A stretch of 57,850 nt of DNA, from positions 1-57,850 of the IMG/VR virus record IMGVR_UViG_3300025655_000041, one strand, 5' to 3'. Positions 127 through 57,343 of this stretch are shown piece after piece. The stretch's first letter is position 1. Each line of letters begins with the position of its first letter. The notes beneath the pieces were generated by a model. That model was not told where the DNA came from, did no database searches, and saw only the letters and a list, made by a program, of their open reading frames with translations. This stretch comes from a virus. The translations under genes were made by a program, and so were the position numbers.

Positions 127-139
127 GAATTATCCTTGT

Positions 140-200
140 GGGTAGCTCTGTGGTTCTCCTCCCTTACACGTTGAGCTATCCTCAAGGACAATTCTGTCCT
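140..200 (+). promoter_or_regulatory. Double-hairpin element A before the first early gene
   Basis: Two adjacent inverted repeats are visible. Hairpin 1 pairs GGGTAGCTC (140-148) with GAGCTATCC (173-181), with a possible inner extension at 149-152/167-170. After 3 bases, hairpin 2 pairs AGGACA (185-190) with TGTCCT (195-200) around the loop ATTC. The same layout recurs at 643-687 with different but compensating bases, so the pairing itself is conserved. It may be a hairpin promoter for the virion RNA polymerase, an RNA processing site or a leader structure; the sequence does not decide which. Confidence 0.75.
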
Positions 201-232
201 ACAACGCTCACAGAGCAGAAAGGGTTTGCTTC

Positions 233-628: not shown

Positions 629-642
629 TCAATTCGCCTTCT

Positions 643-687
643 GGGTAGCACTCTACGGGGTGCTATCCTAAAGGATAATTGTATCCT
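643..687 (+). promoter_or_regulatory. Double-hairpin element B, covarying with element A
   Basis: Hairpin 1 pairs GGGTAGCAC (643-651) with GTGCTATCC (660-668). After 3 bases, hairpin 2 pairs AGGATA (672-677) with TATCCT (682-687) around the loop ATTG. Compared with element A, T-A becomes A-T in stem 1 and C-G becomes T-A in stem 2, so both arms changed together. The element ends 23 bases before the next start codon. Hairpin promoter, processing site or leader structure are all possible. Confidence 0.75.
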
Positions 688-710
688 AACTAGCCACAAA
701 GGAGTTTATT

Positions 711-3507: not shown

Positions 3508-3873
3508 ATGATCGTATCATGGAAAAACATAAACACTACTGAAGTAAAAGTAAACGTACAACGTAGAGAGGTATACGAAGAAACTTTTTCTATAACATTC
3601 CTATTCGATGCTCTATCAGACGCTAGCTGGACAATTGAAGAACACGACAATGACAGCGTTACTCTCTCTACTAAAGACGCTGCAGCTATCCGTCATGCAC
3701 TCGAGGTCATGGAGTACACTGAGAGTGACACTATTACTGTATCGCTCAATGGTGACCGTGTTGAAGCTGAGGTCTCTATTATCAATGAACAAAGCAGAAT
3801 GTTGTTCTACCTAGACCTTGAAGTGTACGATATGGAGCTTATAGAAGACGAAACTACTATGGAACTCATATAA
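3508..3873 (+). CDS. Hypothetical acidic protein, 121 aa
   Basis: Starts after AAAGGAA. The chain is acidic, rich in beta-prone residues (ITVS, VEAEV), with an acidic C-terminus. A 68-residue frame inside it on the same strand (3608-3814) is a shadow. No family recognised; no membrane segment. It precedes the promoter-like motif at 3873, so it closes the first early block. Confidence 0.65.
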   Translation: MIVSWKNINTTEVKVNVQRREVYEETFSITFLFDALSDASWTIEEHDNDSVTLSTKDAAAIRHALEVMEYTESDTITVSLNGDRVEAEVSIINEQSRMLFYLDLEVYDMELIEDETTMELI

Positions 3874-3891
3874 AACACCCTTATAGGGGGG
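3873..3891 (+). promoter_or_regulatory. T7-type promoter-like motif, copy 1
   Basis: The string AAACACCCTTATAGGGGGG matches copy 2 (7994-8012) at 16 of 19 positions and resembles the -10 to +6 part of T7-family promoters (CACTATAGGGAGA in T7). It lies in a short intergenic gap, 45 bases before the next start codon. The core CCCT-TAT-AGGG can also fold into a 4-bp stem. A further 5-bp inverted repeat (TATAC-TATAG-GTATA) follows near 3900. Proposed target of the 705-aa RNA polymerase; inference. Confidence 0.5.
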
Positions 3892-5632: not shown

Positions 5633-6116
5633 TGAGAAACGTACAGTAATTATCCCTGAAGTAGAACTGCATTGGGCTAAGCTAGTTAAACCAGTAGAAC
5701 CCTTTGGTACACTACAGTGGGAACTTCAAATGCGTACCCGTGATAAGGCAAAGGCTAAGGCTTGGAAGGATGAGTACTATCTTCCTGTCAAGACAGAGTC
5801 AGATGATGACGGTACTTACTATAAGGCAAACGTTAAGCGTAAAGCACTCAACAAGGAAGGTGAACGTAACAAGGCACCAGAAGTAGTTGATGCTAACAAA
5901 CAAGTCATTGACGGTAACAACATTGGTAATGGCAGCATGGGTAACGTAATGCTATTCCAGTATCCGTATGATGTCGGTGGTCGTAAAGGCGTATCCTCTA
6001 TTATCTCTAAGGTACAAGTAACTGACCTTAAACTATACGAGAATAGCGGTGCTACTGACTTTGACGTTATTGGTAGTGATGATAATGCACCCGAAGAAAC
6101 CGTAACAGACTTCTAA
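5625..6116 (+). CDS. Single-strand DNA-binding-like protein, paralogue C (163 aa)
   Basis: The longest of three related proteins. Visible shared blocks: VELHWAKL, PFGTLQWELQ, NKEGERNKAP before VVD, IGNGSMGNVML, KVQV and TDFDV. It ends with an acidic stretch finishing ETVTDF. The acidic tail with terminal Phe is what T7 gp2.5 and SSBs use to contact polymerase and helicase. I start at ATG 5625, which couples to the upstream gene and has GAGGAG nearby; the in-frame ATG at 5592 is less likely. Given its size and closeness to the replication genes, this is the best candidate for the main replicative SSB. Confidence 0.7.
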   Translation: MINEKRTVIIPEVELHWAKLVKPVEPFGTLQWELQMRTRDKAKAKAWKDEYYLPVKTESDDDGTYYKANVKRKALNKEGERNKAPEVVDANKQVIDGNNIGNGSMGNVMLFQYPYDVGGRKGVSSIISKVQVTDLKLYENSGATDFDVIGSDDNAPEETVTDF

Positions 6117-6457
6117 TGGCTGACATAATAGACTTTAAACCTAAGCGGAAAGAGCTTGAAATAGTCGTTGAGAAAGACGATGATCCTCAACTCTTTCTTG
6201 AGGTTGCTATTGTGCAGCTATGGAAGGACATTGGTGGCTTTAAACTAAAAGAGATGATGAAGGACGATACAGTCTATCATGTATTCTTTCTACAGTTCTC
6301 AGACACTTGCTTTCAAGCTATGGAAGACAAGACTATTGAGGTCTTTGAAGACGGTAATACTGAAATTGAAGCTGAGTTCATGGAGACTATACAAGCCACT
6401 ATGCGTCTACTAATAGAAGCGGAAGGAAGTAATGACAACATGCCCACTGAACACTGA
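6116..6457 (+). CDS. Hypothetical acidic protein, 113 aa
   Basis: Coupled to paralogue C through TAATG. Acidic, helical, with a Phe-rich middle (VYHVFFLQF). No family recognised. It overlaps the next gene by 26 bases. Always reading just after the SSB-like gene, it may be functionally linked, but only position says so. Confidence 0.65.
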   Translation: MADIIDFKPKRKELEIVVEKDDDPQLFLEVAIVQLWKDIGGFKLKEMMKDDTVYHVFFLQFSDTCFQAMEDKTIEVFEDGNTEIEAEFMETIQATMRLLIEAEGSNDNMPTEH

Positions 6458-7993: not shown

Positions 7994-8012
7994 AAACGCC
8001 CTTATAGGGAGA
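7994..8012 (+). promoter_or_regulatory. T7-type promoter-like motif, copy 2
   Basis: AAACGCCCTTATAGGGAGA lies 7 bases after a stop and just before the zinc protein and DNA polymerase genes. It ends in TATAGGGAGA, identical to the last ten bases of the T7 class III promoter, and matches copy 1 at 16 of 19 positions. Proposed promoter of the 705-aa RNA polymerase for the replication genes. The AGGGAGAGG part also serves as ribosome site for the gene at 8025. Confidence 0.55.
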
Positions 8013-14182: not shown

Positions 14183-14427
14183 AGAATATGCCTGATTACA
14201 TTGCTTGGGTACAGTGTAATCCTGAAGATCGCAGTCAAGTAGAAGAAATGTTTCCTAAAGATGAATACACTTTATTGATTGCACTAAAGCCTAACTATGA
14301 CCCTATTACTTGTTCACAGCAAGTACTTTACAATCCACCCGCTCCAACTTGGGGCTTAGATGTATGGAAGAAAGAGGACGATGGAAGATATACGGAACTA
14401 TCTACTAGAGAGAATCCGCAGCGATAA
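14158..14427 (+). CDS. Hypothetical protein, 89 aa
   Basis: Overlaps the deaminase end by 25 bases and the RNA polymerase start by 47. ATG 14188 (MPDYIAWVQC) is an alternative start that avoids most of the upstream overlap. Pro/Asp/Tyr-rich, with no recognised motif. Confidence 0.55.
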   Translation: MQIHYQRIENMPDYIAWVQCNPEDRSQVEEMFPKDEYTLLIALKPNYDPITCSQQVLYNPPAPTWGLDVWKKEDDGRYTELSTRENPQR

Positions 14428-16498
14428 CATAGGTGTTAAGCCTAGACGCAGCCTACAACTTATGCGTATGATCGACACTGATGGTGTTGATATGCTCGAC
14501 TTCCTAATCGAAGATATGATTATCTACGGACGTAAGTTCATTCAGCGTTGTTTTAAGCGCAGCAAAGTAGAGGGTGAAACCCCTATTACGCAAGCTTCAA
14601 TGGCTATCGGCAAGTATATTGTTGAGGGCTGGGACAGTAACAACGTTAACTTTAGAGACCATGTTCGTGTTGGTGATCTTATCATTGAAGGCTTTGTTAT
14701 GTGTGGTTATCTTACTATATCGGTAGGACACATGAAGAGCCGTAAGCCAGTTACAATCCATGCCACTGAAAAGTGGGGTGAAATGGAAGTTGTAGCTGGC
14801 AAAACTACTTGTATGAGTGCAGAGCCAATCCCGCCTATCACTAAACTATTTCAAGACAATGGTAGGGCAGTGATTAAAACTTGGGATAAATCTAAAGAAC
14901 ACTTGTTTATGAAGTATATTAATGCACCTTTTGTAAAGGCAATCGATAGACTACAATCAACTAGATATCGTGTCAATACAGAAGTTAACCAAGCCATTAA
15001 AGAAAATATGTTTATGTTTATTAAGAACGAAACATTTAATGGTGAAGATAAAGAAGAAAACGCTAAACTGTATCAGCGTCAAGCCTCTAAAAATCGAGAG
15101 ATTAAAGAGGTAATGGCAATAGCAGACAAGTGGCTAGGTGAGTCATTTAGTTTTTATATTGATGCAGATTACCGTGGTCGGCTATACTATAGCGAACCCT
15201 TCTTTAACTTTCAAGGTGCTGACATTGCAAGAGGTCAATTACTATTTGACGAAGGTAAACGCTTTGATGAGTCTGCTAGCTTTTGGTTAGCCGTTCATAC
15301 TGCTTGTTGCTTTAACCAGTCATATGGTATTGATGAAATCCCTGAGTGGACTACAAGCGATTACCGTTCTGTACTCGAAGAAGAAAACTTGGACACTATC
15401 TCAGTAGATAAAATGACTTTAGAAGATCGCGCTCAGTGGACTCAAGAAAACATTGATGTCATTGTTGAGATGGGTGAAATGCGAATGATCGCAGAAGAGG
15501 CCGAGAAGGCTATCTCTTTCTTAGCCTGTTGCATCGAGTGGTACCGCTACAGCACTACGGATGGGGACTACTATACTCGACTTCCAATCCCCATAGACGG
15601 TGCTAATAACGGCTGGCAACACCTAGGTGCTATGTCTAAGGATGCACTAACGGGTAGACTTGTTGGTCTTGTTCCTACCGAAATCCAGAACGACTTCTAT
15701 GTACAGATAGCTAAGAGGCTATGCGACAGGATGCCTGAATGGTTTGAAGAAAGACAGATTCCAATGAAGCATATCCGTAAGGGCATTGCTAAACGTGCAG
15801 CCATGACTCGTGCTTATAGCTGTGGTCAAAAGAAAATGTCTGAGTCTATGTATAGCGACTGTTATCAGTACGGATTTACTAATGACTACAACATTTCTAC
15901 CTGGGATTGCGATGAGCTAAGTAATCAGGTTATTAGGGCTATCCAGGAAGTTTGCCCCGGTCCTTTAGATACTATGAAGTATCTGCAGCGGTTAGCTGAT
16001 CAGGAGATTACTAACTGGTATAAGCAGTATGGTACTGATAGAGGTAAAGGTATCGAGTGGACTACACCTTCAGGCTTTCCTGTGATATACGAATGTTATC
16101 GTACTAGACCTGTTAAGGTAGACTGTTACGGCTTCAATACTCCTGATGGAGAGATCCGCTTCAAGCACGTTATTAGGGAGCATACAGACATCCCTGATCG
16201 TAGAGGCTTTATGTGCGGTATTAGCCCTAACTTTGTACATAGTATGGATGCTAGTCATATGGCTCTTGTTATAGCAGACTGGGAAGGAGACTTCGCTGCT
16301 GTGCATGACTCTTATAGCGCTCACGCTGGTAACGTAGAAGATCTTATGGTTAAGACAAGACAAAAGTTTGTTAGTATCTACGACAAAGAAAACTTCTATG
16401 ATACAATACCCTTTGGTAAGGGCTTCGAAGGAGTAGTACCTACTATCGGTAAGCTATCTATTAAGGATGTTGCTGATTCTACTTACTTCTTTTGTTAA
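14381..16498 (+). CDS. T7-like single-subunit RNA polymerase, 705 aa
   Basis: Transcribes phage genes. Signature motifs: DYRGR (263-267; T7 DWRGR), motif A IPIDGANNGWQH (D406), motif B KRAAMTRAY (K471, Y479), the PNFVHSMD block (616-623) and motif C VHDSY (D643). It ends SIKDVADSTYFFC, matching the T7 C-terminal foot. The residue after the motif B Tyr is Ser, not Gly. With 705 residues it lacks about 180 residues of the T7 N-terminal promoter-binding domain; its size is near the sum of the two N4 RNA polymerase II subunits. ATG 14381 is chosen (AGAGGA upstream) over 14360. It is the last rightward gene, unlike T7, where it is the first. Confidence 0.96.
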   Translation: MEDIRNYLLERIRSDNIGVKPRRSLQLMRMIDTDGVDMLDFLIEDMIIYGRKFIQRCFKRSKVEGETPITQASMAIGKYIVEGWDSNNVNFRDHVRVGDLIIEGFVMCGYLTISVGHMKSRKPVTIHATEKWGEMEVVAGKTTCMSAEPIPPITKLFQDNGRAVIKTWDKSKEHLFMKYINAPFVKAIDRLQSTRYRVNTEVNQAIKENMFMFIKNETFNGEDKEENAKLYQRQASKNREIKEVMAIADKWLGESFSFYIDADYRGRLYYSEPFFNFQGADIARGQLLFDEGKRFDESASFWLAVHTACCFNQSYGIDEIPEWTTSDYRSVLEEENLDTISVDKMTLEDRAQWTQENIDVIVEMGEMRMIAEEAEKAISFLACCIEWYRYSTTDGDYYTRLPIPIDGANNGWQHLGAMSKDALTGRLVGLVPTEIQNDFYVQIAKRLCDRMPEWFEERQIPMKHIRKGIAKRAAMTRAYSCGQKKMSESMYSDCYQYGFTNDYNISTWDCDELSNQVIRAIQEVCPGPLDTMKYLQRLADQEITNWYKQYGTDRGKGIEWTTPSGFPVIYECYRTRPVKVDCYGFNTPDGEIRFKHVIREHTDIPDRRGFMCGISPNFVHSMDASHMALVIADWEGDFAAVHDSYSAHAGNVEDLMVKTRQKFVSIYDKENFYDTIPFGKGFEGVVPTIGKLSIKDVADSTYFFC

Positions 16499-16551: not shown

Positions 16552-16812
16552 TTATGTTAGTAGTTTTTTAATTCCGTCTTTAGCTTGTTTACGGAGGCGA
16601 CCAGCTTCAACTTGAGCTTGTTTACGATCCATACCTTCGTTAATAAAGTTATCAACGTTTTTATTATATACTACGTCTAGTACTGCAAAGTTAAGTTTAG
16701 GGGTGTAAGCTAGTGATGGGTCAAGATTGTATTGCTTAACAAACTCCATGTCATCAAAATCTAATCCTTGTAGCGCTAGTTTATTATAGTTCTTTTTAGT
16801 ATTCACTTTCAT
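16552..16812 (-). CDS. Hypothetical basic protein, 86 aa (last gene of the late arm)
   Basis: Starts 12 bases after the stop of the putative virion RNA polymerase with AGAGGA upstream. Lys-rich, helical C-terminal half. No family recognised. Position makes it a candidate small virion or ejection protein, but there is no direct sign. Confidence 0.7.
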   Translation of the reverse strand: MKVNTKKNYNKLALQGLDFDDMEFVKQYNLDPSLAYTPKLNFAVLDVVYNKNVDNFINEGMDRKQAQVEAGRLRKQAKDGIKKLLT

Positions 16813-16824
16813 TTAACTGTCCTC

Positions 16825-19800
16825 TTAGTTATATTGGTAAATTACTTTTGAAATGAGCTTCCAGATTTTACTTTTTAAAGACTCATTTGCTTTATGCCGT
16901 TGTTCTAAATCTGAAATAATTAGCTTCTGAGCTGCAATATCGCTGATAAGACCTTCGTAAGCTTGCATAGAAATTTCACCCCCTTCAGGACGCCATCCAG
17001 CTTTAATAGCTCTATCTAATAGCTTTTGTGCTGGACCTCTTAAGTTTACTTTAGGTACAGCCTTACGCCCTTCTGTTGTTTCGAACTCAGCGGTAAGCTG
17101 GTCTAACCCTTGGCTTAGCATTACTAAATGATCGTGCAATGCTCGATACTCACTCTCATAGTTTACCGCAATTTTCATTCCAGGATTACGTGCAGCTTTA
17201 GCTCGCATACTTGCCATTGCCGCTTTAAGCCCATCGGTTATTGCTTTAGAAATAGAGTAATTCATATTCACTTGTTTGAATTGATTATTTATTTCTCGAT
17301 GGTAAGCCTTAACACTAGTTGCATCGGTAATAATTGCGTCATGTACCGGCATAACAAATGCTGCGCCTTCCTTACGTACTCTTGCCATGTCATTTACTTT
17401 CATAATAGTATTAGCCATTACTGCAGCATCTATTTGTTGGACTGTAAGAACAGGTAATTGATTAGCCACAAGTTGTCCGAATCTAGATCTATCGGCTAAA
17501 CGATACTTGCCTGTTTCAGGATCAAACACTCGCATCCTAGTACGTTTACCCGCGCTACCAGTAGCTCTAGCTTCTGTCATCTCTAAGTTAACAATACCTT
17601 CTTCTGTTTGAATAGGAATAGTTCTTCCTGTTCTAAAGTGTTCATTAGTTCCCATATAAATAGTTGTACCTAACGGACCCACTAACTCAGGAACCACACC
17701 TAGCATTGCCCATAGTTTACCTGCGTTTTTATACAACTGTTGTTGTTGTAGGTTAAGAATAGTAAGGCCTTGTCCAATTACGTTATTAAGATCGCTAATG
17801 CGATCCATTCTAGAGTAGTCAGAAAGGTTTTCATGTCGTGCAATTACTTTAGCAATAATGTCTTTACCTGCGTCATCAATAAACTCCTGTGCGGTTTCCA
17901 TATGGAATCTAGCTGGCATACCGTATGATGTTTCCATCAATGGAACTTTAGATAATGCTTTAACCATATCGCTGCGTTGGTCTGCTGGTAACTCATAAAT
18001 TTCAGTTAATACTTCTGACCAAAAGTTTTGCTTATCGGGGTTATGTGCAAAAGGAATACCTATTTGCTTCATAGCGGTATCTAAGAATTTATCACGAATA
18101 TCTCCTTGTGATAAAATATTTCCTTCGTCGCCAAAAATAACACCAACTCTTTTCATATCATCAGTATCACCATTTTGCAACGCTTGAATTGCAATACCGT
18201 TTTGCTTTCCATCATGTTGAACTTGTGCTTTAAGTTCTAATGAATTTAGTCCTTTAGTTTTTGCATCATGCCAATTAGCAAAGTCAATAAACGCTTGTAG
18301 CTTATAACCCCAATCATCATTCTTCTTAAGGGAGGATTGATGTAGTCTACCTGCATTTGTAGCTTGATTAAATGTATTCATATCCCCAGACTTAACTGCA
18401 GCTCGCAATGCCTGCCCTTGACGTAACCATGTTTGATATACCGGATCATTTGGATTTGACATAATTGATTTAGTAATATCAATTATATTATTCCAACCCA
18501 TGTCTTCTGTACGAAGACCATTAGTTGGGTTGTAGTTATTATCTAAATCTGGGTCTAATAAATTTTTACCAATTATATAAGTCCAATTTTCCATAATCTG
18601 TTTAGTAATTTTATCACCGGACTTTATATTAACTAAAACTTTTTTAGCACTGCCAACAATATTTCTTACTAACTTGTCTGTTTGGTAGTTAAGCACTGTA
18701 TTACGAACAAAGTAACGACCTACAGAGCTAGCGTGCATATATTTATTGTAATATACTTTACCTTGGTTAGCAGTTGCGTCATTCATTGTGCGTATTATCT
18801 TTCGGGCTTGCATACGCATTACTTTATTAGCTTGATCTTGAGCGTCTACTTCTCTTCCTTCACCAAATCTTTTCTTAGCATTAGAATATGCTTCTAACCA
18901 TTTAGCTTCATGTAGACCTAATGTTTTTGCCCACTTATTATTGCTAAAAAACAGGCCGCCTGGAGCTGCATTTATTAACGTAATACGATCTGCTTCCCCC
19001 GGACCAGCAGGTTCTAATTGAATTACTGAAGCGACAATCATTTTAGCATAAGCAAAACGATCGTCATCAACTCGCATAGGTATAGTAGAAAGCCTTAACT
19101 TTACCGCATCTTCAAAAGCAGTATTTTTAGATGTTTTATTTCGTTTAGAAAGAGGCTTAGCTTTTTCGCCTAGCTCTCGTTCACGCCCTGGAAATTGATT
19201 TACTGCAGGTGGCAAGTAAGCAACGTTAACTCGGCGATCCGGCTGGATATCTTCTAAGATGCCTCTGTTTGCTCTAAAGAAAGCTTCCCCTTCTTCAGTT
19301 AGAACTAGTCGTTCATCTTTTAAATCTGTATTAGGATCATTAGCATTCAAATCAATTGCTTGAAATAGATTTTGTTCTGGTGTTGTAAACATATCATAGA
19401 TTAAGACATCTAGTGCTGCCTTAACATCTGGATCTAATGCTGCACCAGCACCGCCATATCCCATTCTAATATTTGGATCACCCATTTCATTTGGATTAGG
19501 GAGAAGTTTATCTGCTAAAGAAGAAGCCATGCGTTCGCGAATAAGTTCAGGGTCAAAAATACCATCGCCTGCAGCTTGTTCGTCTCTCATAGAAGAAACA
19601 TCTAGTGACTCATCAGTCTTGTTAAATACATCTGCTGCAGTTTCTAAGAAAGTAATTGCTAATGCATTTCCTACACGGTCAGTCATACGACCAGAAGTTT
19701 GATCAAATAATTGTGTTGAAGCTAAAAACCCTTGAACCTTGCGAGACACAGGATCGTCTGCCATAAGCATTGGCGAAATTCGTTTACTTAAAGTATCATT

Positions 19801-20367
19801 AATAAACGAACCTCTAGCAATTATATTACCATAAACATCACGACCTTGTTGTGCTTGAGGTATTGTTGAACGCATTTCATCTGCACTCTGTGCAGCATAT
19901 GTTTCTGTTGTAGCACGAGTTGCTCTTTCAGTTTGACTTTTTATTTCTGATTCTATTTGCTTATTAATAAAGGCAGGATCGTTTGAGAAAGGAGTAGTCG
20001 CCATTGGTTGAAGATCAAAGCCTTCTGGCGCTTCTTCCCCTGGAGTTTCATCTAGTGCATCTGCAGTAGTAGCAACAATACTCGGATCAAATGCACCCGC
20101 TTCAATTAATGATTGTGTTAGCGGATCAAATGACTCTTCAGCTTTTACTCTTGCTTCTGCTGTTTCAGAAGTTTCGGTACTGCCTGGAGGTAACGCTTGA
20201 ATACGTGGCTCCTCACCTAAAGGTTGAGCAATATAATCCGGACGGGCTGCTTGATCTTTCTTTGAGAGTAAATCTAATGCCTGTTCGTCTTGCACTATTT
20301 TTCTAAATTCATCTTCTTGTGCTTCTCTTGCAATCTCAGCAGGAGTTTTTTTAAATGTTAGTTTCAT
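16825..20367 (-). CDS. Putative N4-type virion RNA polymerase, 1180 aa
   Basis: All four motifs of the single-subunit RNA polymerase family occur in order: SSVGR (547-551, in place of T/DxxGR), motif A QHDGKQNGIAIQAL (catalytic D719), motif B SKVPLMETSYGM (K807, Y815-G816, same Lys-x7-Tyr-Gly spacing as T7 K631/Y639) and motif C MPVHDAIITD (D1010). The last is preceded by an LTVQQIDAAVM block like T7's FVHSQDGSHL. The divergence and the xxxGR form recall N4 gp50, whose active core is 1106 residues. The first ~400 residues are acidic and low in motifs, perhaps for packaging or ejection. The gene follows two large internal virion genes, so the enzyme is probably injected with the DNA to transcribe early genes. 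Motifs are seen; the virion location is inferred. Confidence 0.82.
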   Translation of the reverse strand: MKLTFKKTPAEIAREAQEDEFRKIVQDEQALDLLSKKDQAARPDYIAQPLGEEPRIQALPPGSTETSETAEARVKAEESFDPLTQSLIEAGAFDPSIVATTADALDETPGEEAPEGFDLQPMATTPFSNDPAFINKQIESEIKSQTERATRATTETYAAQSADEMRSTIPQAQQGRDVYGNIIARGSFINDTLSKRISPMLMADDPVSRKVQGFLASTQLFDQTSGRMTDRVGNALAITFLETAADVFNKTDESLDVSSMRDEQAAGDGIFDPELIRERMASSLADKLLPNPNEMGDPNIRMGYGGAGAALDPDVKAALDVLIYDMFTTPEQNLFQAIDLNANDPNTDLKDERLVLTEEGEAFFRANRGILEDIQPDRRVNVAYLPPAVNQFPGRERELGEKAKPLSKRNKTSKNTAFEDAVKLRLSTIPMRVDDDRFAYAKMIVASVIQLEPAGPGEADRITLINAAPGGLFFSNNKWAKTLGLHEAKWLEAYSNAKKRFGEGREVDAQDQANKVMRMQARKIIRTMNDATANQGKVYYNKYMHASSVGRYFVRNTVLNYQTDKLVRNIVGSAKKVLVNIKSGDKITKQIMENWTYIIGKNLLDPDLDNNYNPTNGLRTEDMGWNNIIDITKSIMSNPNDPVYQTWLRQGQALRAAVKSGDMNTFNQATNAGRLHQSSLKKNDDWGYKLQAFIDFANWHDAKTKGLNSLELKAQVQHDGKQNGIAIQALQNGDTDDMKRVGVIFGDEGNILSQGDIRDKFLDTAMKQIGIPFAHNPDKQNFWSEVLTEIYELPADQRSDMVKALSKVPLMETSYGMPARFHMETAQEFIDDAGKDIIAKVIARHENLSDYSRMDRISDLNNVIGQGLTILNLQQQQLYKNAGKLWAMLGVVPELVGPLGTTIYMGTNEHFRTGRTIPIQTEEGIVNLEMTEARATGSAGKRTRMRVFDPETGKYRLADRSRFGQLVANQLPVLTVQQIDAAVMANTIMKVNDMARVRKEGAAFVMPVHDAIITDATSVKAYHREINNQFKQVNMNYSISKAITDGLKAAMASMRAKAARNPGMKIAVNYESEYRALHDHLVMLSQGLDQLTAEFETTEGRKAVPKVNLRGPAQKLLDRAIKAGWRPEGGEISMQAYEGLISDIAAQKLIISDLEQRHKANESLKSKIWKLISKVIYQYN

Positions 20368-20414: not shown

Positions 20415-23400
20415 TTATTTTAAAAGAATATCTCTTACTTCATTAGCCGTTGGTATATCAATATCAGGAAATGGGTTTTGCCCTGTTACACCTTTACCAA
20501 TTGAATGTCTTAGTCCTGTAAATGGTGCAATATAAGGAGCAGCACCAGCTAGTTTAGCTACTCCACGTTCACCTTCACCACTAAGCAAATCACCTGTTGC
20601 TTCAAATACTCTTTGAATATTTCTAGCAGAAGGCCCACTCTCGCCAAACAATATACTAAAGCTATTATCGCCACGAGTAGGATATAGCGGTTTAGCTGCG
20701 TCTAATACTTTTTCGTATTGACCTAGTACACCTGAAGAATACAATGCTCTTTGAGCATAGCCCATTTCATCTAAATAAGGGCTAGCTTGACCAAACTTAA
20801 TAATATCTTTTAAGTGTTGCGAGGCAGCGCCTAACGCTATCATTGTAACAATCATTGCAAAGGTATCGTACTTTACTTGAGGAGTACCTTTTCTTAGTTG
20901 TTTATTCCAAAGCTTAGGCACAATGTTTGCGGTAAAAGTACTAATAAATCCATTGAATTGAGTGAAGAGTTGATAGTGCGGATCCTGAAAAAACAAGGGT
21001 CTGTTAGCAGCCCCCGGTAATTGAACTCGTTCTTTAACAAAACGGTATACTGCTAGATCCATAATATCATTTAACTTGTCTTCTAGCTTAGCTGCAGCTT
21101 CAACAACACTTGCGTCACGCGGTACTGCATTATTTGATTGCATATTACGGATAGCTTTTCTTAAAGCCTTAACTCTTTTGCTAGGCGACTTAATATACAA
21201 TGCATCTGTTTTATCTACTGATGAGTCTGTCTTATCTAAAACATTAAAGACTTCATCACGGTAAACTTGATCTAAGTCAGATAACAATTCCATCATTTCA
21301 TCTGGATTGATACCTAAATCGAGAAGTTGATTATAAGTTCTTATTTCAATCTCTGACATTTTATCAAAGTCGAATCCACCTGTTTCAATACGGAAGCCAG
21401 ATGCTTTACCGGCAATAGTAATTGGTACTCTTATTTTCTTCCGTGGAGCTAAGTCTAATATATCAAATCCAGACTTAACAAAATCAACTGCTAATCCTGC
21501 TGCCATTCTTCGTTGTATTTGAGTTACCTTCGTAAGACCAATACCTTTAAAGAATGACTCATGTAATCGCATAAATGCGACATCACGCTCACCTGTTGCT
21601 AAACGATCTACCACTGAGCTGGTGTCAGCACTCTGGCCTACTTCCTTAAGCAGCTTTTCGGTTTTAGCAACTTCAGCAGCTAAGGCTTTATCGAACGCTT
21701 GCATTACCTGATTAGTTAGTTGTTTAGTTGCAGCTTTAAACTCAGCATCAGTCTTTAAGTTAAAAAATAACAACGCAGTTTCTGGTATAGAAGATAAAGC
21801 TGCTAGTGGGAGGCCAGCAAGCAATGACCAACTTGTTAAGAAAGAATTAATTGCTGCTGCTTTTTTGCTTTCAATACGATTAAAGTTACCATGAGTACTA
21901 TCGATAATTGAAGTCATATAGTAGGCAAATTTATCTATTTCTGCTTTACTTAAATCAGAGCCAGGTAGTGATTGTTCTTCCACTAATTGCTGAAACATCT
22001 TGTTTAACTTGCGACCGCCATGACCAAAGTAGTCTGTTACTGAAGAATACTTAGCAGCATCCATTCTGTTACGATGTAATGTTTCAAACATATTATCGCT
22101 AGACCAGTCACTAAAATTTGGTTTTTCAGTTATCTTAAAAAAGGCACGTTTCACTGAATTAGGTAAATAAGTAACGCCATTAATTAGTGATGCGTTAGTA
22201 TTAACTGTACCCTGTCCTTGACGAACAATACTTTCGTATAGCTCTTGTCTATCGTCTTCAGTTAATTGAGAACCAAGGTTAGTTTTAAGCCATTTCATAA
22301 AGCCTTCTTTATTTGCTTTAACTTTTTTCCAATCAAAACCTTGATGTTGCCACCAATAATCAGGATTATAACCTATCGTATCACCAGTCTCTCTTGTATA
22401 AGATCCACTAATTTTTTCATGTGCTTTATCATAAGAGTTTTTAACTTGTTTAGCTGCAATATAAAGCTTTTTCATTTCAACTTCTTGATCAACAGTTAAG
22501 TTAAGCTCGATCAATCCTGCGTTATTAATATTTGCTTTTGCAACATCTCTATAACGTTTGATTTGAGCAGGCTCAGTTAAACCTAATCCTGCCAACGCTT
22601 GTTTTGCAGCGGCGCGTTGTTGTGGCGTAGAGCGAACATCATAATAGATATTAACAAGCGGGTAAGCACCTAAACGGCTTAACGTATATGCTTCATACAA
22701 ATCAAATTGTCCAGATCTACCAAACTCTCTTAGCTTACGGCTAATGGCTTCTACATTTTTAGTTTTAAGCTTACCGAACCCTAATAACTTACCAATTCCA
22801 GGCTCATCAACTAACGCAGTCATTTCTCCCATTGTTAAGTCATGCGCCTCTTTAAAGTTTGCACCTGAGTGATATCTACCTGTAGTATCTGCACCAATTA
22901 ACGCAAAGATTTTCATAGCCATTGGACTCAGCACAAGCTTTTCCATATTGATAGCTGCTTTTTCAGAGGCTAAAACTAGTTTAGCTGCACCCTGTATAGC
23001 TGCATCTACAAAATCTTTAGGATCTTTAATGTTTCGAAGGGTATTCATTAATCCTTGTTGATCTACAATATAAGAATCGTGTGCTTGACGACGAGCTTCA
23101 GTCCCGTTATCCCGTAAACCTTCTGCTTCCTCAATAATGTTTTCAACATCTGGAATTATAACTCCGTTATTTGCATCTTCAATTCTTTTATTTTCAATAA
23201 CATTGTTTCGATCGGCACTATAAAGCCCACGATCTAACGCCATAAGCTTATTCTTACCTTGTTGATGGATATTGTTTGCCATTGATAGCGCACCACCAAC
23301 AGAACCCCCTGCTAATGCTGCGTTGATTGCTCGATCTAAGAGTTCTTCTTGAGTGTAAGTGGTTTCAGATACACTAGCAGCAACTGCTGTTTGAATAATA

Positions 23401-24713
23401 TCTTGTGCTACTTCGGTACTTGCTTCAGTTCCCATTCCTGTCAAGCCACGCCGCGCAATTTCACCTACACTAAATTTAGCAATGTCTTTAGGATTAAGTC
23501 GAAGAGCAAGTTCTTTAGTATATTTACCCACTTCTTGGCGGGTTACATTAAGTAGTTTATTTCTAGCTTGGTCAATTCCAATACCTTGTTTTTGAGAGAT
23601 ACTACGAGCTACTTTTTCAAAGCCTTGTTTACTGAGGACTTGTCCTGGCTTTACTAATCGTTCCAAACCAAAGCGTTCAAGTGCCGACATACCTACACCT
23701 GCCATTGAAGCAGCTATAAACTGTGTAACACCCTTTTCGCCTTCCATCTCATTCCAAGTTTGTCCAGCCATAGTCATAGCTAACGGTGTTGTAGATGCAG
23801 CTAATGCACCGCCTGCCCCAATAACGGGTGTAAAAGGCGCGGCAACTGCCATTGACCCAAAGGCTAACATGATCTGGGGAACCATCATTGCTGTGTTGTT
23901 AAGTACATATTGAAATCCAGTAGACACACTGTCAATATCTTTATAATCTAATACAACTTCAGGCGCATCCATCATCCGCTGCTTGGCACGTGAAACTCCT
24001 GCCTCACCGAAGCGTTCTAGTGATTCAATACCAAAGGTTTCACCGATTGCATCTGCATAACCAAACAACCCTTCTTTAAGCCCTTCAATACCTTGATCAA
24101 AGCTTACCCCCATAGAACCTATAAAACCAATTGCTTTGTTATCAATTGTTCTATCTGGATTACGGAATTGTACTCCTGTATGCAGATCAGGATCATAATA
24201 CCTTTCGTTTAAGGCAAGTGTTTTAAACTCTTTACCAAGCCGATCTACATAATCGTTATATTCATTTCCAATTTCTCTAAATGGAATTTTATCATCACCG
24301 TATATTGCTGCAATTAAATCAGCTTCTTGTTTAGCGATAATACCACGTTCAGGGGTGAATTCATTTATTTCTGCAATACCAGCGGCGTAAAGAGTTTCCA
24401 TGAGGTCTTGACCTTCTGGATTTGTACTTGTAATAAGTTCTCTTTCGCCTTCACTAGTATCGTAATTACCACTGTAATCAATGTTAGTAAAATTACCTTC
24501 ATTAATTACAGTAGCAATTGCTTCTTTTTGTTTGTTACCACCCTTCTCGCCAGGCTTATAGACAAATTTACCATCTTCTTCAACAACCTTTTCGGTTTCC
24601 CGACCATCAAAGCCTGAATACCTGTACCGTTTTCCTGACCGATCGGTAAGGGTATCCGGATCAATTAACAGTTTAGAGTTACCATCGCTGTCAATAAAAG
24701 AATTATCTGCCAT
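20415..24713 (-). CDS. Large internal virion (ejection) protein, 1432 aa
   Basis: A very large late protein with hydrophobic helices near residues 280-320 (MVPQIMLAFGSMAVAAPF, GGALAASTTPLAMTMAG), another near 960-990 (FLTSWSLLAGLPLAALS), and a C-terminal domain with further amphipathic and hydrophobic helices (YDTFAMIVTMIALGAAS). Size, position after a lytic-transglycosylase virion protein and membrane-active segments fit the role of T7 gp16: a core protein ejected to build a channel across the cell envelope. No enzymatic motif seen. AAGGAG precedes the start. Confidence 0.75.
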   Translation of the reverse strand: MADNSFIDSDGNSKLLIDPDTLTDRSGKRYRYSGFDGRETEKVVEEDGKFVYKPGEKGGNKQKEAIATVINEGNFTNIDYSGNYDTSEGERELITSTNPEGQDLMETLYAAGIAEINEFTPERGIIAKQEADLIAAIYGDDKIPFREIGNEYNDYVDRLGKEFKTLALNERYYDPDLHTGVQFRNPDRTIDNKAIGFIGSMGVSFDQGIEGLKEGLFGYADAIGETFGIESLERFGEAGVSRAKQRMMDAPEVVLDYKDIDSVSTGFQYVLNNTAMMVPQIMLAFGSMAVAAPFTPVIGAGGALAASTTPLAMTMAGQTWNEMEGEKGVTQFIAASMAGVGMSALERFGLERLVKPGQVLSKQGFEKVARSISQKQGIGIDQARNKLLNVTRQEVGKYTKELALRLNPKDIAKFSVGEIARRGLTGMGTEASTEVAQDIIQTAVAASVSETTYTQEELLDRAINAALAGGSVGGALSMANNIHQQGKNKLMALDRGLYSADRNNVIENKRIEDANNGVIIPDVENIIEEAEGLRDNGTEARRQAHDSYIVDQQGLMNTLRNIKDPKDFVDAAIQGAAKLVLASEKAAINMEKLVLSPMAMKIFALIGADTTGRYHSGANFKEAHDLTMGEMTALVDEPGIGKLLGFGKLKTKNVEAISRKLREFGRSGQFDLYEAYTLSRLGAYPLVNIYYDVRSTPQQRAAAKQALAGLGLTEPAQIKRYRDVAKANINNAGLIELNLTVDQEVEMKKLYIAAKQVKNSYDKAHEKISGSYTRETGDTIGYNPDYWWQHQGFDWKKVKANKEGFMKWLKTNLGSQLTEDDRQELYESIVRQGQGTVNTNASLINGVTYLPNSVKRAFFKITEKPNFSDWSSDNMFETLHRNRMDAAKYSSVTDYFGHGGRKLNKMFQQLVEEQSLPGSDLSKAEIDKFAYYMTSIIDSTHGNFNRIESKKAAAINSFLTSWSLLAGLPLAALSSIPETALLFFNLKTDAEFKAATKQLTNQVMQAFDKALAAEVAKTEKLLKEVGQSADTSSVVDRLATGERDVAFMRLHESFFKGIGLTKVTQIQRRMAAGLAVDFVKSGFDILDLAPRKKIRVPITIAGKASGFRIETGGFDFDKMSEIEIRTYNQLLDLGINPDEMMELLSDLDQVYRDEVFNVLDKTDSSVDKTDALYIKSPSKRVKALRKAIRNMQSNNAVPRDASVVEAAAKLEDKLNDIMDLAVYRFVKERVQLPGAANRPLFFQDPHYQLFTQFNGFISTFTANIVPKLWNKQLRKGTPQVKYDTFAMIVTMIALGAASQHLKDIIKFGQASPYLDEMGYAQRALYSSGVLGQYEKVLDAAKPLYPTRGDNSFSILFGESGPSARNIQRVFEATGDLLSGEGERGVAKLAGAAPYIAPFTGLRHSIGKGVTGQNPFPDIDIPTANEVRDILLK

Positions 24714-24724
24714 TATTAGCTCCT

Positions 24725-27391
24725 TTATTTTTTGTTAAGAAGGGCCATTGCCTCTGCATGATGATCACCTTTTTGACGACCTTGTAGTCCATCCGCAAGT
24801 AATTGTGAAACCCAATAAGTGTAGTCGTTATGTTCTGAATCATCAGAAGGTTTCATGCCAATAAACTTAGTTCCTTTACTATGAGCATCCCACTGTTTAG
24901 ATGCTCTTTTCCAAAAGCCTTTATAGACCTTTGCTGCATCATCAGGGTTTCTAGTTTTCTTGCCAGCAAAATCTAGTACTTGATCATTCAACTCTAATAC
25001 TTTAGCAATGTCTGCACCCTTAAGATCATTAGCACTAACGGCACCTTCAGTATTAACAACCATTGCTCTCTTATTATAAAAAGAAAGAACACTATTTGGT
25101 TGTTTACCGCCAGTTGCATTTGCCTTTTTAACTGCATTCCAGTAATCATCTTGCGCACGAAGTGCTTCTGCACGAAGTTTTGCTTTAGCCTCTGGTCTAC
25201 CCTTAGCAAATGTTTTTACATCGCTTAGATAACGATTAGATAGCTCAGTAGCCTCGATTGCACCTTCAGTATCAATTCGTTTTCCATTTTGGTCTACAGC
25301 AGCATTGATATTACTAATTTTATCTTTAGCTCGCTTGGCAAAGTAGTCTTCAACTTCTTGAGCATTATCATACTTAGGATTATGCTTTTGAATTTGACCT
25401 TTCATTAAAGGAGAATCGAAAGAATAATACTGACCATTGTATTCAATGGCATACTTATCTTTTCCTACTTTAACTGTTTGGAGAGTACCAAGTGTATCAT
25501 GCTCGATTAAATCACCAAAGCCTTGAACCGTTGTTCCTGTTTTCCTTTCAATAAGATCATCACGATTACCAGTTTTAAGATATTTATCAAGTGATTCTTT
25601 GGTATACAGCTCCATAAAGTCTTTATCACGAACATCTTTTTGGCGCTGTTCAATAGCGCTGTCATATCGCTTAACAAACTGTTTAGCTGAATAACCTAAT
25701 GATGCATTATGATCATAACCTAAAGCTCTTGATCCCGCATACATAATTGCCATACGCGAAATTTCTTCTGGAGTAAACATGTCACTAAATATATCTTTAA
25801 ATCCAGTTATAATAGATTGCATAAAGCTAGGTTCTACCTTCTCACCTTTTTCTTCAATTTCTTTAGCCTTGGCTGCAGGAACTTTTTTATTATCAGGAAT
25901 ATTTTTAAGTAGATCATCAGCAAGAGTGTTTAACGCTGTAGCCTTCGAATCTGCTGGCTTTGGAGGCGCTTTATTTTCTTCAGGCACATAGCTTTGTGCT
26001 TCAGCAACAGCTTTTTCGTCGGCTACTTTAGTTGCAGCTCGATCACTTAACTCTTTTGCTTGAGTAGCTTTAGAGTCTGCTAATTTCTTAACGGCATCTT
26101 TATGCATTTGAACAAGTTCAGGAGTAACTGTTTCGTTATTAGCTTTCTTTTGATTAATAAGATTAGCTAACCTTGCTTCATTTTCAGTATCATTTTTAAC
26201 AATAGCTGCATTAACATTAGTCATTCCAGGATCTTCAGGAAGTACATCAAAAATATTAGGAACAGGAACACCAGGGGCATCTGCATCTACTGGTAAACCT
26301 GCAAATTCTAAGGGATACATTGCAAAACGCTTTGCTTGATCTGCAATACTAGAGAGGTCCGTAGGTTTTGCAGTTGTTGCTTCAGTTGCAAGCCTCTCAC
26401 CTAATGGCGTTGGCGGGACAGCTGCGATTTCAGGGACTTCTCTTGATACCATCTTAGCTTGATTATCATCAAGATAAACTTCACCTTCTGGTGTCATAAC
26501 GAATTCACCCAAGTCATCTGAGTAAACCTTTTGATCTCCAAGGGTGCCTATTACTGTTCCTGGTACTGTACTAACCTGTCTACGAGTAACACCAAACTTA
26601 TCTGGACCAGACATATTATCCATTATTTTACCAGCATAAGCTTGTCCACGTGGTCCAAGCGCTTCTGTTCCAGCCTTAGCTTTGCGAACATTACCTGCAC
26701 CAGAGTGATAAGCAGTAAGTACTTCTTCAGGAGTAAAGTCAGGATTAGCGCTAGCAATACCTGTTAAATAATTCCTAGCAAATTCTCTAGACTTAACAGG
26801 ATCACGGATATCTTCTACTGCAAGCGGAGGAACATTCATTCCAGGTTGTTGAGCTGTTGCTGGCATAATCTGATAAAGACCTTGCGCTCCTACCTCAGAA
26901 GTAGCCATAGGATCACCTGAAGATTCAACCATTTTAAGGCTGTCAAGTACTTCATCGGTTAACCAAGAAGGAACCTTACTACCTACAGCAGCATACATAG
27001 GCCCACCGTCTCTATCACCAAGCCGTTGACCAAGACTATTTAGCATCCCATCATAACGAGGTACTTCCATTCCACCAGCAGCATAAGTAGGAATAGGTCC
27101 ACCTTGTGCTTTTTGTATCATGCGACCTTGCTCATTCATTTCATCAATTTTTTCTTGATTACCAGGAAGACGAGATGCTTCAGCATTAACAACATTCTCT
27201 CCAGGGGTTAACCACGCAGGGACTGTATCAGTGCCCTTAGGCTCTCCAGGGTGTGTGCTAGAGTCTGCACCGTTATAACCGTCTACTTTAGGGATAATCA
27301 TCATCATAGGTACAGTAAGGTCTGGTTCGAAGAATTCGAAAGATGTCATGTTTCCATAACGGTCTTTCTGTGAAAAACTTTTTAGTTTCAT
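24725..27391 (-). CDS. Internal virion protein with lytic transglycosylase domain, 888 aa
   Basis: Residues about 143-255 form a soluble lytic transglycosylase (SLT) domain: catalytic Glu in KMVESSGDP (E156), GAQGLYQIMPATAQ and AYHSGAGNV. Such domains in virions (T7 gp16, PRD1 P7) open peptidoglycan during DNA entry. Before it lies VPAWLTPGENVVNAEASR, a motif common in phage virion proteins, and glycine-rich AGGPIPTYAAGG / DGGPMYAAVG repeats. The rest is a long helical, Ala/Lys/Glu-rich stalk. AGGAG precedes the start. Confidence 0.88.
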   Translation of the reverse strand: MKLKSFSQKDRYGNMTSFEFFEPDLTVPMMMIIPKVDGYNGADSSTHPGEPKGTDTVPAWLTPGENVVNAEASRLPGNQEKIDEMNEQGRMIQKAQGGPIPTYAAGGMEVPRYDGMLNSLGQRLGDRDGGPMYAAVGSKVPSWLTDEVLDSLKMVESSGDPMATSEVGAQGLYQIMPATAQQPGMNVPPLAVEDIRDPVKSREFARNYLTGIASANPDFTPEEVLTAYHSGAGNVRKAKAGTEALGPRGQAYAGKIMDNMSGPDKFGVTRRQVSTVPGTVIGTLGDQKVYSDDLGEFVMTPEGEVYLDDNQAKMVSREVPEIAAVPPTPLGERLATEATTAKPTDLSSIADQAKRFAMYPLEFAGLPVDADAPGVPVPNIFDVLPEDPGMTNVNAAIVKNDTENEARLANLINQKKANNETVTPELVQMHKDAVKKLADSKATQAKELSDRAATKVADEKAVAEAQSYVPEENKAPPKPADSKATALNTLADDLLKNIPDNKKVPAAKAKEIEEKGEKVEPSFMQSIITGFKDIFSDMFTPEEISRMAIMYAGSRALGYDHNASLGYSAKQFVKRYDSAIEQRQKDVRDKDFMELYTKESLDKYLKTGNRDDLIERKTGTTVQGFGDLIEHDTLGTLQTVKVGKDKYAIEYNGQYYSFDSPLMKGQIQKHNPKYDNAQEVEDYFAKRAKDKISNINAAVDQNGKRIDTEGAIEATELSNRYLSDVKTFAKGRPEAKAKLRAEALRAQDDYWNAVKKANATGGKQPNSVLSFYNKRAMVVNTEGAVSANDLKGADIAKVLELNDQVLDFAGKKTRNPDDAAKVYKGFWKRASKQWDAHSKGTKFIGMKPSDDSEHNDYTYWVSQLLADGLQGRQKGDHHAEAMALLNKK

Positions 27392-35267: not shown

Positions 35268-35286
35268 TCCCCTTATAGGGCGTTTT
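35268..35286 (-). promoter_or_regulatory. Promoter-like motif variant before the ribonucleotide reductase gene
   Basis: On the - strand the sequence reads AAAACGCCCTATAAGGGGA, like the motif at 7994-8012 but with the centre TATAA in place of TTATA; the + strand reads CCCCTTATAGGGCG. It straddles the lysozyme stop, about 40 bases before the reductase start. As the motif is near-palindromic its direction is uncertain. Confidence 0.35.
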
Positions 35287-49419: not shown

Positions 49420-50589
49420 CTACTCTAGGCCGTAGATAGCACCACAACCCAATGGGTTACGGACTTCCAAGGTTGATTCTTCAACCATCATGCCTTTAGT
49501 TGAGTCGCCTTGCTGGCCTACATCAACTTCTGCAAGAGGACGCAGAGTTGCTACAGCAAACCACATTGGATCATAAATCAATGCAGAGAAGTTAGCAAGG
49601 TTGGTAACACCAGCGCCTGAGTGAGCAACGTTGTTGTCACCAGTAAACGCGAAGTTGTTTGTGAGACCCATGATGTAGTTAGGAACTACCATCAGATCAC
49701 CGAAGTCTGACATATAGATGTCAACTGACTGACGCAGTTTGCCTGAGTCGTCAATGTTACGCTGTACGCCTGTGTCGCCAACCATCAGGTCAGAGAAGTC
49801 ACGGCGAAGCTTTGGTGACAGCATGATCTTTGAGGCTTTACCGCCTTGCTCATAGATCTTCTGCATGACTGAGTCAATGTTAGTCAAAGCAATTGGGTCA
49901 CGATCAGGTGCAGTTGTTGAACCAGCAATGGTTGAACGCGCTACGGCTGTACCGTCTGCATCTGTACCAGCACCAGTTGTTGCTGCTGAAGGAGCCTGGA
50001 ATTCACCAACGTAGTCAACTGTTGAAGCTGAGTTGATGAAAGACTGATAACCACCAGCTGAACGAGCGTTAGCGTTCTGTGTACCTACAGCGTTTGAAAC
50101 ATTCATTGAGTGAACCATGTCAAACTCAACGTCACGGCGCAGTTCAGTACCACGCTTCTTCAACTGATAGGCATACTCATCAGCTACACCAGCCTGATCT
50201 ACTGCACGGCGTGTGCCTGATACAGCAATTGTCTTACCGTTGATCTGAGTGTAGTTACCCAGACGAGTACGGTATGGACCTGAAATAGCAAACTTGTTGC
50301 CAGTTGCAGGTGTTGCACCTGTGCCGCCTGAACCAGTTGTGTCTGGTGCAATCCAGTCTGTACCTTCGCCAATGCGAGAGTTGCCTGGTGCTTCCAGCTG
50401 GTCTGTCTGCCACTCATGGTAGATAGCTGTTGCTTTTGCTTTGCCAATAGATGACATGAAAGGGGTTTCATCACGAGTAATCATCGTGATAAAGTTGGCA
50501 AGATCCTCACGCTGTGAGACGTCTTTGCCGGTTCCGCGAGCTGGTCCTCCTGGACCTCCGGTGCCGCGAACACCAAGATTATTAGCCAT
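49420..50589 (-). CDS. Major capsid protein (SU10 / DUF5309 type), 389 aa
   Basis: The pattern NFITMITRDETPFMSSIGKAKATAIYHEWQTD near residue 32, then GNYTQI, the RRDVEFDMVHS helix, KIMLSPKLRRDFS and the closing RPLAEVDVGQQGDS is that of the SU10/phiEco32-like major capsid family (HK97 fold). It follows the scaffold and is followed by a terminator, typical for high capsid expression. The ribosome site lies in a small hairpin (50597-50611). Confidence 0.9.
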   Translation of the reverse strand: MANNLGVRGTGGPGGPARGTGKDVSQREDLANFITMITRDETPFMSSIGKAKATAIYHEWQTDQLEAPGNSRIGEGTDWIAPDTTGSGGTGATPATGNKFAISGPYRTRLGNYTQINGKTIAVSGTRRAVDQAGVADEYAYQLKKRGTELRRDVEFDMVHSMNVSNAVGTQNANARSAGGYQSFINSASTVDYVGEFQAPSAATTGAGTDADGTAVARSTIAGSTTAPDRDPIALTNIDSVMQKIYEQGGKASKIMLSPKLRRDFSDLMVGDTGVQRNIDDSGKLRQSVDIYMSDFGDLMVVPNYIMGLTNNFAFTGDNNVAHSGAGVTNLANFSALIYDPMWFAVATLRPLAEVDVGQQGDSTKGMMVEESTLEVRNPLGCGAIYGLE

Positions 50590-51920: not shown

Positions 51921-52242
51921 TAGTGTCCTCCATCATATGCGGAATATTCTTCCCATACATTTCAAAGCCTATCATTTTTTCTTTAACACTTCCTAGTGCC
52001 ATAGCAGAGCTATAGAGAAACTCACGAGACTTTGTTTCATGCGGCTCCGTCTTGAGCCATTCAATAAAGAGGTCGATTAGAACCTCACCGTATACTTCAT
52101 CAAAGAATTCATCCCGTTCCTTGGCAGCGAAGTGACCCTTAACATGAGCCCTTCGCGCCAATTCTTCAGGATGAACTTTATGATTACCGTATGACTTAGT
52201 ATTACCTAGCTTCGTCTCAGCTGTCTTGCGGTATTTGTCCAT
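51901..52242 (-). CDS. Hypothetical protein after portal, 113 aa
   Basis: Overlaps the portal end by 26 bases. His/Lys/Glu-rich, helical, with FFDEVYGEVLIDLFIEWLKTEP in the middle. Genes in this spot in related podoviruses are unknown head-associated proteins. No catalytic motif. Confidence 0.6.
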   Translation of the reverse strand: MDKYRKTAETKLGNTKSYGNHKVHPEELARRAHVKGHFAAKERDEFFDEVYGEVLIDLFIEWLKTEPHETKSREFLYSSAMALGSVKEKMIGFEMYGKNIPHMMEDTNGEATN

Positions 52243-57305: not shown

Positions 57306-57343
57306 CTCCTATAAGGGGGTGTTTAGGTCCAAAGTGGTACTAA
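57306..57343 (-). promoter_or_regulatory. Candidate late promoter and hairpin before the terminase gene
   Basis: Reading leftward, TTAGTACC-ACTTT-GGACCTAA (57343-57323) is an imperfect hairpin with the CCACTTTGG core seen at 1330 and 2935. It is followed directly by AAACACCCCCTTATAGGAG (57324-57306), a variant of the T7-like motif at 3873 and 7994 with two extra C. This is the only non-coding DNA before the long late arm, so a promoter must lie here or upstream. Confidence 0.5.

Follow-up and report, generated by a model that had tools for sequence, protein, structure and literature searches.

We concluded, with a probability of about 0.8, that this phage encodes, as its 1180-aa late protein, a stand-alone and catalytically intact single-subunit RNA polymerase (ssRNAP), which would be made late, packaged with two ejection proteins, injected with the DNA and used to transcribe the first early genes before the T7-like RNA polymerase (RNAP) of the phage exists. 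The computed basis for this reading is an ssRNAP fold, a complete set of conserved catalytic residues, a distinct clade, a position in the ejection operon and a depletion of cysteine like that of known ejected proteins. RNA synthesis by the protein is predicted from the fold and the catalytic motifs. The window, that is the whole stretch of DNA analysed here, is a 57,850-base record and may be incomplete. An earlier note on this DNA had described four polymerase motifs in the protein, and all four were found at the residues claimed. The gene and its motifs are as follows.

16825..20367, minus strand: candidate virion ssRNAP, 1180 aa, no cysteine, ATG start; assigned from motifs, profiles, model and tree
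18715..18729, minus strand: SSVGR (S547-S-V-G-R551), a T/DxxGR-type motif at residues 547-551, invariant at R551 in 41 sequences and aligned to N4 TRVGR
18196..18216, minus strand: motif A, HDGKQNG (H718-D719-G-K-Q-N-G), residues 718-724, on strand 716-720; the invariant D719 is the metal-binding aspartate by homology
17920..17949, minus strand: motif B (O-helix), K807-x7-Y815-G816, at helix 795-814 and aligned to N4 KNPLTITIYG
17338..17346, minus strand: motif C, V1008-H1009-D1010, in a beta-hairpin and aligned to N4 IFDG; the invariant D1010 is the second metal-binding aspartate by homology

The spacing from R to A, A to K and K to C was 168, 88 and 203 residues, compared with 135, 111 and 281 in the N4 mini-vRNAP. 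Downstream of the polymerase gene lies a minus-strand ORF of 86 aa (16552-16812) with no family match of note.

On the basis of its sequence, the window was treated as belonging to the CRP-7 group, a set of marine bacterial viruses that has been little studied, because its portal shared 54.6% identity with that of Roseobacter phage CRP-7. This phage is a cultured podovirus of the RCA roseobacter lineage, for which ORF30 was the only RNAP described (PMC6918029). The mixture of a portal of family phrog_1216 as in N4 (52217-54391) and a major head protein of phrog_1328 (49420-50589), the N4 counterpart of which belongs to phrog_1357, points to mixed ancestry of the virus.

Searching with the 1180-aa protein itself returned near-identical contigs only. 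It gave no match when searched directly against phage records, no useful match in the PDB with phmmer, and no relatives in a scan of genome contigs; an earlier family alignment used as query gained no loci, and the profile of the family alignment found nothing in the PDB beyond weak matches of motif C to mitochondrial RNAP (best E 0.074). The diversity of relatives was instead reached through the neighbouring RNAP gene, where two RNAPs as queries led to 78 loci. CRP-7 was found through the neighbouring RNAP, with the same gene layout as the window: the RNAP on the plus strand followed by gp33, gp34 and gp35 on the minus strand, gp33 (QBQ72826.1) being annotated as hypothetical. At most loci of sufficient length the first minus-strand ORF past the RNAP encoded a protein of approx. 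1165-1370 aa in its complete forms. The 47 near-full-length relatives were reduced to 38 non-redundant ones, all joined by BLAST at E < 1e-5. By sequence comparison, this type of protein is thus conserved in CRP-7-type phages, the cultured roseophage CRP-7 (gp33) included.

In these 38 relatives the motif columns held R, D, mostly K/R, mostly Y-G, and D, with F for Y or A for G after Y in a few. Since the same columns are conserved across the family, the motifs are more than a chance occurrence. The positions listed by the alignment tool, without hand selection, as invariant in the 41-sequence alignment were R551, K565, R568, D719, G742, R758, D1010 and N1027, while Y815, G816, Q977 and D980 were conserved at >=90%. 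The CRP-7 cluster was the most divergent at the motifs, with Arg in place of K807 and Ala in place of G720. CRP-7 gp33 agrees with the window protein in position, in similar size (1235 aa), in motifs A to C and in the lack of cysteine, and differs in sharing only approx. 20% identity, in the Arg at motif B and in a longer C-terminus.

An AlphaFold model of the 1180-aa protein, built from a 41-row alignment, reached a pLDDT of 80 and a pTM of 0.82, and in it the ssRNAP fold is predicted to span almost the whole chain. The top PDB matches of the model in Foldseek were all ssRNAPs (mitochondrial, T7, N4). With VIA, the model matched T7 RNAP with Z 24.3 over 580 residues at 5.5 A and the N4 mini-vRNAP (2po4) with Z 19.9 over 711 aligned residues at 7.2 A. 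The earlier note had named an absent polymerase fold, or motifs in unstructured parts, as grounds for abandoning its reading; the fold was that of an ssRNAP and the motifs lay on structured, confident regions: a strand for motif A (716-720), a helix for motif B (795-814) and a beta-hairpin for motif C (1006-1014, as 1006-1008/1011-1014). For CRP-7 gp33 a close relative (82% in the best segment) was modelled from residue 201. Its pLDDT was only 65, and its match to T7 RNAP in VIA had Z 25.1, so that the ssRNAP fold appears to be common to gp33 and the window protein. Two further elements were assigned from the model.

17560..17649, minus strand: candidate specificity loop, a long beta-hairpin at residues 907-936 between motifs B and C, its role assigned by analogy to T7 and N4 (PMC4496689)
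19300..19365, minus strand: candidate intercalating hairpin, a beta-hairpin at residues 335-356, from the secondary structure of the model and the hhalign position

In the hhalign alignment residue ~350 fell near residue 1264 of full-length N4 vRNAP, which is K267 of the mini-vRNAP, and the region of K267 forms the intercalating hairpin of N4 (PMC4496689).

The protein could also descend from an ssRNAP yet no longer make RNA, being a virion protein that serves DNA ejection as part of an internal core or as a motor. Its gene lies in the ejection cluster, it has no cysteine, the family evolves fast (the window and CRP-7 forms at approx. 20% identity, as above), and CRP-7 is altered at the motif B Lys and the motif A Gly. 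The R, both catalytic Asp and the Tyr-Gly are nevertheless kept across relatives sharing little else, and the strands and helices around the catalytic residues are intact in the model. We consider a purely ejection-related role unlikely.

Profile comparisons with hhalign, in which E-values refer to single comparisons, placed the family among ssRNAPs. Against Schitoviridae vRNAPs the score was 205 (E 2.9e-20, residues 274-832) with R551, D719 and K807/Y815 in register, and motif C (D1010) was recovered in a separate C-terminal alignment (E 1.6e-7). A profile of diverse canonical ssRNAPs was matched in one piece over residues 308-1049 (score 138, E 1.4e-14), and all four motifs were in register with canonical phage ssRNAPs over 605 columns; the RNAP of the same phages scored 82. 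The controls, an ejection-protein family and a reversed N4 decoy, scored 19 (E 0.62) and 24 (E 0.39). The profile and structure searches and the four-motif alignment against N4 mini-vRNAP and T7 RNAP, which had been suggested as a check, therefore gave an ssRNAP match with both, and judged by profile the protein is closer to the vRNAPs of Schitoviridae than to the canonical ssRNAPs of phages. It also matched phrog_2206, 'virion RNA polymerase', with E 4.4e-6. Searching N4 gp50 with the family HMM (hmmsearch) matched motif A alone (domain E 2.6e-4). The Pfam RNA_pol family PF00940, a detection test for known members, did not match the 1180-aa protein and matched 4 of 12 relatives weakly (best E 0.0013).

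An unrooted tree of the catalytic region of 45 sequences resolved three groups: the CRP-7-type proteins (support 98/96), the Schitoviridae vRNAPs (99/97) and the canonical ssRNAPs (100/100), with CRP-7 on a long branch (3.21). The protein thus resembles the core of N4 vRNAP, yet by sequence it is placed outside the Schitoviridae vRNAP clade, in a clade of its own. A sister relationship of the two clades is possible. The earlier note had seen in it an N4-type enzyme without the huge flanking domains. Part of this held, as the protein is an ssRNAP of mini-vRNAP size with N4-type vRNAPs closest by profile; its derivation as an N4 vRNAP minus flanks was set aside because of the separate clade. Alteromonas phage R22Y, with a vRNAP of 2083 aa, was considered as a case of a vRNAP outside Schitoviridae and dropped, since its authors place R22Y within Schitoviridae (PMC11705849).

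With N4 gp50 and its mini-vRNAP core (PDB 2po4, 3c3l) the protein shares the ssRNAP fold, [T/S]xxGR, the K-x-P...YG of motif B and a motif A of DGxxNG lacking the QH of canonical enzymes. It differs in size, 1180 residues being approx. one third of the 3500 in N4, and has no counterpart of the N-terminal membrane region and the C-terminal domain. T7 RNAP and the canonical phage ssRNAPs share with it the fold and all four motifs, but have DxxGR where [T/S]xxGR is found here, and QH after motif A.

An N4-type vRNAP stripped of its N- and C-terminal domains and nested within the Schitoviridae vRNAPs, a proposal that concerns ancestry only and is compatible with the proposed function, would agree with the best profile match and with the portal family common to this phage and N4. 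We regard this ancestry as quite improbable, given the separate clade, a head protein family unlike that of N4, which is missing from the window phage, and the absence from the late proteins examined of the HExxH motif present in the N4 C-terminal domain (PMC12633501). Schitoviridae carry three RNA polymerase genes in genomes of 59-80 kb (PMC7650795); two were recognised in the window, which may be incomplete.

The earlier note had placed the gene behind two ejection-type genes, and both indeed lie upstream in the same minus-strand operon.

20415..24713, minus strand: ejection-type protein, 1432 aa, no cysteine; residues 369-480 weakly match the N4 vRNAP N-terminal region 325-439
24725..27391, minus strand: ejection-type protein, 888 aa, with an SLT transglycosylase domain, no cysteine

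No large gene follows that of the polymerase in the late operon, just as gp50 closes the late genes of N4, and this position is kept in CRP-7 and in relatives of sufficient reach. The weak profile match of the 1432-aa protein (46%, P 2e-4), on which we did not rely, hints that some portions of the giant N4 chain may exist as separate proteins in this phage.

Cysteine content separated the two polymerases of the phage, with none in the 1180 aa and 16 in its own 712-aa RNAP. The 38 relatives had 7 cysteines in 46,872 aa (0.15 per 1000 aa) and 12 Schitoviridae vRNAPs, N4 gp50 likewise being free of cysteine, had 0 in 41,025 aa, compared with 14.5 per 1000 aa in 12 canonical ssRNAPs and 21.3 per 1000 in the RNAP of the same phages. 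At the canonical ssRNAP rate, 0 cysteines in 1180 aa has P 3.6e-8 under a Poisson model. The known ejection proteins T7 gp15/gp16 and N4 gp51/gp52 also have no cysteine, and the lack of cysteine in vRNAP has been tied to passage through the tail (PMC3915230). Other virion proteins of the window are cysteine-poor too (head protein 1, portal 1, scaffold 0), so the depletion marks virion or ejected proteins in general. Because the gene ends the late operon behind the ejection genes, and the protein is free of cysteine like the known ejection proteins, it is probably packaged in the virion and injected. Across the window, the minus-strand late and ejection proteins are strikingly poor in cysteine compared with the replication genes, and a lack of cysteine may be of general use for recognising phage proteins that are ejected.

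That the protein is instead a late RNA polymerase that stays out of the virion and works in the cell, as its T7-like neighbour does, would agree with the ssRNAP fold and motifs and is very unlikely, as the phage already encodes a canonical ssRNAP with 16 cysteines, while this protein is cysteine-free and is encoded last in the late operon behind the ejection proteins.

The second polymerase and the promoter-like motifs of the window are listed below.

14360..16498, plus strand: canonical T7-like ssRNAP, 712 aa, 16 cysteines, convergent with the polymerase gene, the second polymerase of the phage (PF00940 E 2.6e-55, phrog_414 E 1.6e-99)
3873..3888, plus strand: promoter-like motif AAACACCCTTATAGGG (T3/T7-like)
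7994..8009, plus strand: promoter-like motif upstream of the DNA polymerase gene
35270..35285, minus strand: promoter-like motif upstream of the ribonucleotide reductase gene, 1 mismatch
57307..57322, minus strand: promoter-like motif upstream of the terminase gene, 2 mismatches

The motif AAAC-x-CCCTTATAGGG (AAACxCCCTTATAGGG) is conserved across CRP-7-type contigs: 18 loci, the window among them, contained 23 matches, where simple shuffles gave 0.2. Several relatives, unlike the window, have it immediately ahead of the ejection-protein gene that lies upstream of the polymerase gene. We take CCCTTATAGGG to resemble T3/T7 promoters. Owing to this likeness and its occurrence before middle and late genes, it was dropped as a candidate N4-like hairpin promoter and assigned, by inference, to the T7-like RNAP. 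No CCCTTATAGGG motif was found before position 3873 of the window, so the first early genes need another polymerase, either the injected one or that of the host. Host RNAP could transcribe them; sigma-70-like matches occurred at chance level, a result that speaks neither for nor against host transcription. An N4-like hairpin promoter was not identified. Two copies of another element precede the early genes.

129..209, plus strand: two-hairpin leader element, copy 1, before the first early gene
632..696, plus strand: two-hairpin leader element, copy 2, before the second early gene

The element recurs in two relatives (L111 at 6383-6445 and 5838-5900, minus strand; L110 at 5885-5953, minus strand) and shows compensatory changes, with both sides altered in 6 of 15 pairs among four sequences. 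It had no match in Rfam and may function either as a promoter hairpin or as an RNA leader.

Taken as a virion polymerase, the protein would be synthesized late and packaged beside the two ejection proteins, and would enter the next cell together with the phage DNA. There it would make the early RNA that leads to the T7-like RNAP. The latter would then use the CCCTTATAGGG promoters to transcribe the middle and late genes, and would in this way supply the virion polymerase for the next round. Several points count against this explanation: the cysteine-poor nature of other virion proteins, the lack of an identified N4-like hairpin promoter, the possible service of host RNAP at early genes, and, in CRP-7, the Arg for the motif B Lys, the Ala for the motif A Gly and the long branch. 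As a tentative and rather doubtful extension, CRP-7-type phages may form a third phage ssRNAP lineage, with free-standing core-sized injected enzymes, early starts at two-hairpin leaders and the membrane and regulatory functions of N4 carried by separate ejection proteins.

Injected polymerases that transcribe the first genes are also found in Thermus phage P23-45, as a tail-tape-fused virion RNAP, and in jumbo phages. In P23-45 these first genes include that of a second polymerase (PMC10770324). In contrast to the protein described here, these virion RNAPs are homologous to cellular multisubunit RNAPs and are not ssRNAPs.

In the literature covered here, we came across no account of a virion ssRNAP that is core-sized and stands alone, and none of such an enzyme from CRP-7-type phages. 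Published descriptions treat injected ssRNAPs as a hallmark of the Schitoviridae, whose enzyme is approx. 3500 residues long. If a different and widespread group of marine phages has a core-sized stand-alone form, this would point to the flanking domains being dispensable for packaging and injection, and the ssRNAP tree would gain a second lineage of the injected-polymerase strategy, or else an older form of it. The proposal is open to direct testing, since CRP-7 is in culture, with Rhodobacteraceae bacterium FZCC0042 as its host. If the polymerase is indeed injected, the phage could start reading its own genes at once.
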